From Exiguobacterium marinum DSM 16307 (GTDB taxonomy: Bacteria > Bacillota > Bacilli > Exiguobacteriales > Exiguobacteriaceae), in assembly GCF_000620845.1 (NCBI RefSeq), contig NZ_KK211189.1, forward strand, positions 1,069,662-1,133,661: a DNA stretch of 64,000 bases, read 5' to 3'. Both the position numbers and the translations under genes were made by a program. This document shows positions 30,763 through 32,985 of this stretch, one piece after another; the stretch's first letter is position 1, and each line of letters begins with the position of its first letter. The notes under the pieces are model-generated. The model saw only the letters and a list, made by a program, of their open reading frames with translations. It did not search any database and was not told the DNA's origin.

Positions 30763-31404
30763 TTATGAGTTCGTATTATAAAGTTCAGATTCAACCGCAT
30801 GAACAGCGGCTGACCAGGAGCCATAGCGATGTAAAATGGCTTTTGTTGAAGGTTTGTTATTCCGCTTCGCCCATTCACGATACGCTTCGAATGAAAGCGA
30901 AAATCCCATTTCTTGAATGGCTTCACGAAGAGCATCGGATAGTTCTGTTTTCGAATAGGTCACACTCGCCTCAAGGCCCGCTTCGGCACAGGCATCATGC
31001 CACGAACCGAACGTTTTGACGATATGATAATGGCTCGGTGCCTTCGGATGGAGCTTTCGCCATTGCTGATACTTCTTCAAGGTGATAATCGAGCCCATGT
31101 CTCGCGAATAAAGTGCGAGCGTCTCGACGATGTCCTCACGTGTATACTTCGGCATTTTGTCTGGCAATTCGACAGTAGATTCTCCATGCCATTCATAGCC
31201 TGCGATGGCAAGTGCCTCAGCCCATGACCCGAACTGACGAATGATGGATTCAGGGGATGGCCATTTCTGTTCCATCGCGAAGCGACGGTAGACAGACCGG
31301 CGTGGACGTTCCTTCAGCAAGTCCCCGAGAAGGCGGATGCAATGGATCATCCTTTGCTGTTCGGTGGACAAGTGATGGGATTTAGTGGATAGCGTTTGAC
31401 TCAA
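30763..31404 (-). CDS. Protein of three HNH-associated (homing endonuclease) repeats, no nuclease domain
   Basis: A 213-residue basic protein made almost only of three ~40-residue copies, each ending in the signature FGSWxxAxxxAG: IIRQFGSWAEALAIAGYE, IVKTFGSWHDACAEAGLE and ILHRYGSWSAAVHAVESE. This repeat is the DNA-binding module found beside HNH nucleases, but no HNH, GIY-YIG or LAGLIDADG motif is present. The start is TTG at 31404, eight bases after AAGGAGG. It may bind DNA as a regulator, or be the remains of a nuclease gene (both inferred). Confidence 0.72.
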   Translation of the reverse strand: MSQTLSTKSHHLSTEQQRMIHCIRLLGDLLKERPRRSVYRRFAMEQKWPSPESIIRQFGSWAEALAIAGYEWHGESTVELPDKMPKYTREDIVETLALYSRDMGSIITLKKYQQWRKLHPKAPSHYHIVKTFGSWHDACAEAGLEASVTYSKTELSDALREAIQEMGFSLSFEAYREWAKRNNKPSTKAILHRYGSWSAAVHAVESELYNTNS

Positions 31405-31661
31405 TGATGGTTCCTCCTTCCGTGGACTCAAATCTGAACCGACAAAGATGAAAAAAATGCTCCTACAATCATACTATCGGATTGTTTTTCGGATTTATTA
31501 ACGTGAATTTGAAATTTTTTAAACAATTCCTAAGAATTAGGTAGGACTAAAGACTCAGTTGATAATTTCAAAAAATGGTAACAGCTCTATTACAAATTAA
31601 ATCGAATATCGTGAGAAATGTAAACATAAAGTTTTAATCATCCAAAATTGTCATATTTTAT

Positions 31662-31717
31662 AAAAAAGTACCCATCTGGAGAAATGGGGTCATCGCCTTC
31701 GCTCCAGATGAGTACCC
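31662..31717 (-). ncRNA. Candidate small RNA of ~55 nt
   Basis: The gene-free stretch 31405-31856 holds, on the minus strand, a promoter (31750-31722) followed within a few bases by a 14-base-pair hairpin (31715-31702 with 31681-31668, one G-U) and six T. The predicted transcript is therefore almost only a terminator hairpin, with a 20-base loop containing ACCCC and, at its base, CTCC, both complementary to ribosome-binding sites. C-rich loops are a feature of several Gram-positive regulatory RNAs. The rest of the stretch is AT-rich, with no other structure seen. Confidence 0.5.
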
Positions 31718-31721
31718 TTCT

Positions 31722-31750
31722 ATAATAAATTTAATTTTCAGACTAATCAA
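31722..31750 (-). promoter_or_regulatory. Promoter of the candidate small RNA
   Basis: On the minus strand TTGATT (31750-31745) and TATTAT (31727-31722) are 17 bases apart; transcription would begin near 31717-31715. Confidence 0.55.
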
Positions 31751-31856
31751 TCGAATAATGAAATTAGTTCAAAAAAAATTAAACGACTGGTCAATGAAAG
31801 TCCGATTCTGCTAAAATAGCCGCATTGAGTGAAAAACAGAAAAGAGGATCATCACT

Positions 31857-32669
31857 ATGACAGTTTGGTTATTTTATACGTTGCTTGGATTGATTCAAGG
31901 TTTCACTGAGCCGATTCCGATTTCATCGAGTGGACATCTCGTTATCTTCCAAGAACTATTTAACATCGACTTGCCGGGATTGTCATTTGAAGTTTTCGTA
32001 AACTTCGCTTCGCTTCTCGCTGTCTTAACGATTTATCGAAAGGATGTTGTTCGCCTCATCGTGAGTTTGTGGACCTTCTTATTCAAAAAAGACCGAACGG
32101 ACGAGACGATGGTCGATGTGAAGTTCATCGGATTACTACTCGTTGCAACGGTGCCAGCCGGTGTCCTTGGTGTCCTTTTCGGGGACTGGATCGGAGAAGT
32201 GCTCGGTGGCGTGGCGACAGTCGGGTATACGCTCATCATCACGGGACTCGCCCTTTGGTTCATCCGAGACATGCGAGGGAACAAAGGAGACGGTGGCATC
32301 ACGCTTCGTGACGCCGTATTGATCGGGCTCGCGCAAGCCGTGGCACTCATTCCCGGAATCAGTCGGTCCGGGGCGACGATCGTCATGGCGATGTTACTCG
32401 GCATCAAGCAAGAATCGGCACTTCGTTTCTCGTTCTTCCTGTTCATCCCAATCAGTCTCGGGACGATGATTTTGGATGGTCCGACGCTCTTTACGAATCC
32501 GGAGACGCGTGACTTGTTCGGTCCGCTCATCCTGGCATTCATCGCATCTTACGTGTTGACGGCCATTTCGTTGAAGTGGTTCCAGCACATCATGGCGAAA
32601 GGCGAATTGAAATATTTCTCATATTATTGCTGGATTGTTGGACTTCTCGTCGTCCTCTTTCTCGCATAA
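31857..32669 (+). CDS. uppP: Undecaprenyl-diphosphatase UppP (BacA)
   Basis: A 270-residue membrane enzyme that recycles the lipid carrier of wall synthesis and gives bacitracin tolerance. The two family motifs are present: GFTEPIPISSSGHLVI (usual form GLTEFLPISSTGHL) and PGISRSGATI. About eight hydrophobic segments are visible. The F-to-I and T-to-S differences in the first motif mark a Bacillales side branch rather than a loss of function. ATG follows GAGGAT; a terminator follows the gene. Confidence 0.92.
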   Translation: MTVWLFYTLLGLIQGFTEPIPISSSGHLVIFQELFNIDLPGLSFEVFVNFASLLAVLTIYRKDVVRLIVSLWTFLFKKDRTDETMVDVKFIGLLLVATVPAGVLGVLFGDWIGEVLGGVATVGYTLIITGLALWFIRDMRGNKGDGGITLRDAVLIGLAQAVALIPGISRSGATIVMAMLLGIKQESALRFSFFLFIPISLGTMILDGPTLFTNPETRDLFGPLILAFIASYVLTAISLKWFQHIMAKGELKYFSYYCWIVGLLVVLFLA

Positions 32670-32733: not shown

Positions 32734-32752
32734 AAATCTGTACAAACAAATA

Positions 32753-32889
32753 TTCCTTCGGGGTCGGGTGAAATTCCCAACCGGCGGTGATGGGCCCATG
32801 CCCTAAGTCCGTGACCCGGGCGCACGTGTGCGAACGGTGGATCTAGTGAGACTCTAGAGCCGACAGTATAGTCTGGATGGGAGAAGGAA
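32753..32889 (+). promoter_or_regulatory. FMN riboswitch (RFN element)
   Basis: The conserved RFN sequence blocks are all present: the closing helix TTCCTTC (32753-32759) with GAAGGAA (32883-32889), GGGGTCGGGTG, AACCGGCGGTGAT, AGTCCGTGACCC, CGGTGGATCTAGTGA and AGCCGACAGTATAGTC. It senses FMN and stops expression of the rib genes when the cofactor is plentiful. The 155 bases after it hold a small hairpin (ACAGGTC/GACCTGT) and the terminator. Confidence 0.95.
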
Positions 32890-32985
32890 CAAAAAACAGG
32901 TCCGCGTGACCTGTGCTTCGTCGTACGCTTTTCTGTATAGAAAACGTTTATTTGGCTTGCCCAAAAGCGACGGAACCCTCCCACC

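Follow-up and report, generated by a model that had tools for sequence, protein, structure and literature searches.

A predicted hairpin small RNA of Exiguobacterium that may silence oppA1, and its likeness to a sister-genus oppA leader

In the window, the 64,000-nucleotide stretch of Exiguobacterium marinum DSM 16307 DNA that was analyzed, a promoter on the minus strand leads directly into a hairpin with a U tail. We think it quite probable that this locus (31750-31662, minus strand) is a small RNA gene, and that its product, a trans-acting RNA of ~54 nt with ancestry shared with an oppA leader, blocks translation of oppA1, perhaps under the control of CodY. The promoter, the hairpin, and the loop are conserved; the loop has an exact and conserved complement at oppA1; and the promoter, the pairing motif and the place of the locus are like those of an oppA leader. 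The initial annotation of this DNA had proposed a small RNA whose C-rich loop would pair with Shine-Dalgarno sites, and comparative evidence favors such an RNA, in the predicted minus-strand form of ~54 nt. The oppA1 target, and the relation between the small RNA and an oppA leader in the sister genus, are new. The features of the locus are as follows.

31745-31750, minus strand: -35 element TTGATT, in a 29-base promoter identical in 19 of 19 same-genus genomes
31722-31727, minus strand: -10 element TATTAT, identical, spacer included, in 19 of 19
31733-31747, minus strand: CodY-like box ATTAGTCTGAAAATT, 12 of 15 consensus bases, within the promoter, invariant in 19 of 19
31662-31716, minus strand: predicted small RNA, ~54 nt, a hairpin that begins near +1 and runs into the U tail (folding, conservation, compensatory changes, covariance model)
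31702-31715, minus strand: 5' arm of the stem (folding, alignment, script check)
31686-31697, minus strand: loop motif GGCGATGACCCC, predicted partner of the oppA1 Shine-Dalgarno region (conservation, duplex energy)
31668-31681, minus strand: 3' arm of the stem, then T6 at 31667-31662 (folding, alignment, script check)
30763-31404, minus strand: HNH_repeat (PF18780) gene, downstream of the RNA, TTG start inferred from the Shine-Dalgarno sequence GGAGG
31857-32669, plus strand: BacA/UppP gene, divergent, on the other side of the RNA, not thought to be part of the system

Positions checked by script bear out the arrangement first read from the sequence (TTGATT, 17 bases, TATTAT, six bases, a 14-base-pair hairpin with a 20-base loop, a U tail). 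The -35 element occupies 31750-31745 and the -10 element 31727-31722, and six bases further on begins the hairpin (31715-31668), in which 14 pairs (31715-31702 with 31681-31668), one of them U.G, enclose a loop of 20 nt at 31701-31682, with the T6 run directly after the 3' arm. The start of the RNA, at about 31715, is inferred from the -10 element. The CTCC motif, which the initial annotation put at the base of the stem, is actually in the 3' arm, at the end next to the loop. As had been claimed, about 450 bases (31405-31856) are free of genes, provided that the HNH_repeat gene starts at TTG 31404. Folded as RNA, the locus reaches -35.8 kcal/mol against a shuffle mean of -17.2 (z -6.4; none of 200 shuffles as good), and it has a single DNA-level copy in its own genome. 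A terminator scan restricted to loops of 3-8 bases did not return this hairpin and gave just a smaller alternative at 31688-31671. Seven promoter-like matches are found in 4 kb, where 4.3 +/- 2.0 are expected; a match of this kind by itself is not above chance, and it is therefore conservation that must decide the case.

We compared 19 genomes of the genus, including the window's own. The intergenic region and its neighborhood are kept in all of them, and the 29 promoter bases always stand six bases ahead of the hairpin. The loop core GGYGATGACCCCA has a single variable position (C/T) across the 19 genomes; elsewhere in the intergenic region, the conservation of ten-base blocks goes down to 0.46-0.6. 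Joint conservation of promoter and hairpin in close relatives, the lack of which would have refuted the small RNA according to the initial annotation, is thus seen in 19 of 19 genomes, and an own promoter conserved together with an intrinsic terminator is a feature of the class of trans-acting small RNAs of Firmicutes with C-rich loops. In the stem, two-sided changes occur at 4 pairs; shuffles average 1.5, and 1 of 500 has as many. Of the cells in the stem alignment, 96.1% are paired, as opposed to 36.0-56.7% when the partners are slid. The covariation is modest: the RNAalifold covariation term is only -0.58, with two-sided changes in 3 of 18 pairs, one of the four two-sided pairs falls in the U-tail extension, 6 of 15 distinct rows break the pair at columns 12-45, and ten pairs in the outer helix show no variation.

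A covariance model built from these sequences, the kind of search that had been suggested for this region, recovers the locus in all 19 genomes with 76.8-90.9 bits. In the window's genome, the minus strand scores 85.6 bits and the plus strand 32.3 bits, and the U.G pair of the stem, present in 19 of 19, becomes a C.A mismatch on the plus strand. The higher score and the pair that can form only on the minus strand indicate that minus is the right strand; a plus-strand element of uppP was rejected on the same two grounds. A scan of GTDB contigs with the exact hairpin pattern returned 15 stretches, all of them titled Exiguobacterium (aurantiacum, alkaliphilum, profundum, aestuarii, chiriqhucha, algae, qingdaonense, and unnamed Exiguobacterium). 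We also rejected a peptide encoded in the loop (ATG ACC CC), because the two clades of the genus do not share its frame, and membership in a known Rfam family, as the locus has no match at the gathering score and at E<=10 just weak ones, such as SNORA19 and rli60.

The next match of the model in the window's genome, at 33 bits, is a terminator (G000:C2:2658547; L052, 2658547-2658604, minus strand) that stands after a gene weakly matching sugar-binding protein families. The loop of this terminator reads GACCCC in five of the six genomes read (L052-L057) and GATCCC in the sixth, and the hairpin is perhaps a second C-rich loop RNA, derived from a 3' end.

The sequence GGGGTCAT followed by ATG within 14 bases occurs 25 times in the window's genome, and two of these occurrences were judged from the surrounding ORFs to be real start sites, namely those of oppA1 and of a YhzD-like gene. 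The product of oppA1, a gene outside the RNA locus elsewhere on the genome, is an OppA-type binding protein, with a Pfam SBP_bac_5 match above the cut-off and scores below the cut-offs of all NCBIfam OppA models. Its start region reads CAGGGGGTCATCGCA-ATG, in which GGGGTCATCGC is a perfect complement of eleven loop bases, so that the target prediction with the loop, also proposed in the initial annotation, has yielded an 11-nt match. The pairing site spans the Shine-Dalgarno sequence and the spacer (GGGGUCAUCGC against loop GCGAUGACCCC). The predicted duplex has -24.6 kcal/mol; the best of 125 other start regions, a background set that is part of the genome, has -17.9 (mean -8.4, sd 2.8), which places oppA1 at 5.7 sd from the background mean, and none of 5,000 shuffled loops does as well. 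Opening would cost about 3.7 kcal/mol for the loop and about 3.6 for the target. Eighteen of the 19 same-genus genomes share an identical site, and the nineteenth (G006) keeps its ten-base core; a conserved complement of the loop at a Shine-Dalgarno site, here present in 19 of 19, is a feature of the class named above. Start regions, including that of HNH_repeat, are generally conserved, and the invariance is partly expected. When each loop is paired with its own oppA1, the energies are -24.6 kcal/mol in nine genomes, -22.7 in nine and -18.9 in one. At oppA1, the complement to the motif is kept in 38 of 38 genomes of both genera (see below).

These numbers bear on the reading in which the loop is a general Shine-Dalgarno binder with many or other targets, or the oppA1 match is due to chance. 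ACCCC can indeed pair with many G-rich starts, as the background mean indicates, the YhzD-like start binds the loop with -16.1 kcal/mol, and the 125 start regions are a sample rather than the whole genome. However, the conserved motif extends past CCCC (GGYGATGA) in a way that fits the oppA1 spacer, the oppA1 duplex stands far off the background, and its complement is preserved in both genera, which makes this reading quite improbable.

Targets of the RNA beyond oppA1 are possible. An operon near oppA1 in the window's genome encodes ATPases, two permeases, one of which is of the Opp3B type (488.8 bits, cut-off 480), and a second binding protein. The start of the first gene of this operon, that of the binding protein, has GGGGACATCGC or GGGGAAATCGC in 13 of the 18 same-genus genomes read, one of the 19 being left out. 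Its duplex with the loop has -15.3 to -17.4 kcal/mol in 16 of the 18, and -8.9 and -11.0 in the other two, so the site is weak and is lost in two genomes. As one of the 125 background start regions pairs equally well, the operon start is only a candidate. The YhzD-like gene (L173; G000:C2:2535667-2535681), the start of which contains GGGGTCAT, has GGGGGTCAT at the Shine-Dalgarno site and is, by its sequence, a possible second target. The exact 13-base complement of the loop, TGGGGTCATCRCC, has 30 matches in the 19 genomes; 19 are the RNA locus itself, and among the other 11, read as 100-base stretches, two pairs each seem to represent a single place found in two genomes.

The sister genus, i.e., the other genus of the family, was represented by 19 genomes, and no stand-alone gene for the hairpin RNA was found in them. 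Covariance-model matches with E<=1 (best E 0.003) are present in 11 of the 19, but were rejected as homologs of the RNA: the eight loci read, of eleven, look by eye like other terminators or chance. The motif and its complements are nonetheless there. Sister-genus OppA1 is 67-70% identical at the protein level, and the Shine-Dalgarno site of its gene contains GGGGGGTCATCG in all 19 genomes; a third oppA has GGGGTCAT at the start in all 8 genomes examined (of 19). In 19 of 19 genomes, the HNH_repeat ortholog (62-68% identical) comes directly downstream of an oppA paralog on the same strand, oppA2, and the oppA2 leader carries GGCGATGACCCC in every one of them, within a longer hairpin that has both arms exact in 18 of the 19. 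Between the oppA2 promoter and that of the small RNA, 24 of 29 bases agree in 18 genomes and 23 of 29 in one; an agreement of 24 is reached by none of 2,000 Markov sequences, and in a BLAST alignment the similarity continues over 58 columns at 78%. The oppA2 leader is predicted to pair with the oppA1 of the same genome at -24.7 to -28.8 kcal/mol (19 genomes) and with the third oppA at -20.8 to -26.6 kcal/mol (8 genomes). Four opp proteins from the window's genus were compared, and no one-to-one partner of oppA2 was seen among them; others may exist.

Accompanied in both genera by a similar promoter and the same HNH_repeat neighbor, the motif belongs to a predicted small RNA in Exiguobacterium and to an mRNA leader in the sister genus. 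As promoter, pairing motif and place are common to both, one probably arose from the other, and the small RNA would share ancestry with the oppA2 leader, with the direction of the change going either way. A more specific reading is that the front end of an oppA mRNA silences sibling oppA genes in trans, as a leader in the sister genus and as a stand-alone RNA of ~54 nt in Exiguobacterium, after loss of the oppA2 coding region, or, in reverse, that a small RNA became fused to a transporter gene. We regard this reading as evenly poised, because the covariation is modest and a comparison of just these two genera gives no direction. If it is true, a small RNA would be seen in two states, as mRNA leader and as independent gene, with the same targets.

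The position of the HNH_repeat gene beside the pairing motif in both genera may not be accidental, and it could also be taken to mean that the promoter and hairpin are the leader of this gene, ~260 bases upstream of it, with a conditional terminator (attenuator) that is read through in response to a signal. The gene is indeed on the same strand, in a neighborhood conserved in 19 of 19 genomes, and in the sister genus it likewise comes after the motif-bearing unit. Yet the hairpin starts at about +1, which leaves no upstream RNA for an antiterminator, and conserved blocks just ahead of the HNH_repeat gene resemble a promoter of its own; for these two reasons attenuation is not favored. In addition, six upstream regions of the sister genus show the gene behind an ordinary oppA2 terminator, and the oppA1 complement would be left unexplained. 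Altogether, we hold attenuation to be decidedly unlikely.

Another possibility is that the hairpin is a protein-binding site or an RNA decoy, or that the oppA mRNAs act on the RNA as a sponge. The sequence of both arms does not vary at the base of the stem, which is more than base pairing requires, but none of these roles predicts a complement at the oppA1 start in all 38 genomes, and they appear very improbable. A promoter stub with a terminator and no regulatory role is scarcely credible: the chance-level promoter match would suit it, but the promoter is identical and the loop near-invariant in 19 of 19 genomes while other parts of the intergenic region drop to about half identity.

Several other features of the window were noted. 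Between the hairpin and the HNH_repeat gene, at 31578-31594 on the minus strand, there is TGTAATAGAGCTGTTAC, which is also an inverted repeat, GTAA/TTAC. It fits the WalR box, TGTWAH-N5-TGTWAH; this pattern occurs once in the window against 0.13 expected, and the ten-base blocks at the site are 0.94-0.99 conserved in the 19 genomes. The HNH_repeat protein (30763-31404, minus strand) matches PF18780 only, with no NCBIfam match, and has six matching stretches in its own genome. An ordinary FMN riboswitch (32750-32892, plus strand) ahead of riboflavin genes is the only Rfam match in the window at the gathering score.

Returning to the small RNA acting on oppA1, the proposed mechanism is as follows. 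Transcription would begin at about 31715 and stop at the T run, giving an RNA of ~54 nt that is presumably a hairpin from its first bases through the terminator. The loop would pair with the Shine-Dalgarno sequence and spacer of oppA1, a step for which pairing potential and conservation were computed, and a ribosome kept off this site would make less OppA1, a peptide-binding lipoprotein. The first gene of the neighboring opp operon may be a weaker second site. We infer that the RNA is made and pairs in the cell, and that pairing represses; repression, rather than activation or sponging, is assumed.

Control by CodY is suggested by boxes at the promoters. The box at the small RNA (12 of 15) is equaled by 6.7% of Markov sequences and is weak alone; those at oppA1 and at sister-genus oppA2, each 13 of 15, are equaled by 0.6% and 1.4%, respectively. 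With up to 3 mismatches allowed, the window has nine CodY-like boxes, against 3.0 expected, and the genome encodes CodY. CodY-bound sites in B. subtilis include motifs with 3 mismatches (PMC4608796). The opp genes are likely, and the small RNA plausibly, under CodY control. If so, the RNA and oppA1 would both be released when amino acids are short, and the RNA would then limit or rebalance peptide import. At another oppA paralog (G000:C2:2711986 region; L235), a CodY-like stretch, AATTATCAGAATTTT, touches the Shine-Dalgarno sequence.

No published description of this RNA was found among the top-ranking literature matches; a genome paper on Exiguobacterium predicts small RNAs by program and discusses their numbers (PMC10837837). 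If the proposed mechanism is correct, the genus joins the lineages whose peptide uptake is controlled by C-rich RNAs at oppA starts (RsaE, LhrC), and does so with a minimal design, with a terminator hairpin as the whole regulator. The two sister genera, with an RNA gene in one and an mRNA leader in the other, would offer a testable case of small RNAs arising from leaders, or becoming leaders.

Control of oppA by small RNAs is described for Escherichia coli, where GcvB and MicF act with Hfq (PMC9988348). A small RNA acting on oppA is also what we predict here. Otherwise, to our knowledge, GcvB and MicF are unrelated to the hairpin RNA of Exiguobacterium. The riboswitch RNA SreA of Listeria monocytogenes, a transporter-gene leader with an additional trans action on a different mRNA (PMC8079631), is comparable to the sister-genus oppA2 leader. 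Unlike with SreA, the motif studied here covers a Shine-Dalgarno sequence directly, and no riboswitch match was found by Rfam at the RNA locus.

Among the closest parallels are RsaE/RoxS of Staphylococcus aureus and Bacillus subtilis, where a C-rich motif is likewise directed at ribosome-binding sites. RsaE pairs at the opp3B and opp3A ribosome-binding sites and reduces the amount of the transporter (PMC3861533). In Exiguobacterium, such C-rich pairing with opp sites is found as a prediction (11 nt at oppA1, and a weaker site where the operon's first gene starts), and the operon beside oppA1, with its Opp3B-type permease, recalls the opp3B setting. In contrast to RsaE, the RNA is a single hairpin of ~54 nt with a longer pairing motif, GGYGATGACCCC, and the RsaE model is neither among the 7 Rfam matches with E<=10 in 31440-31856 nor at the gathering score in the window. 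LhrC of Listeria monocytogenes represses oppA by pairing at the ribosome-binding site via UCCC motifs (PMC8079631) and is driven by LisR (PMC5880928). Whereas LhrC has several UCCC motifs and LisR, the predicted RNA (31716-31662) has one CCCC loop, no UCCC, and a CodY-like box, and the LhrC model is not among the Rfam matches with E<=10. A member of neither family by Rfam, the Exiguobacterium RNA would, by analogy, resemble in function both RsaE acting on opp3A and opp3B and LhrC acting on oppA.
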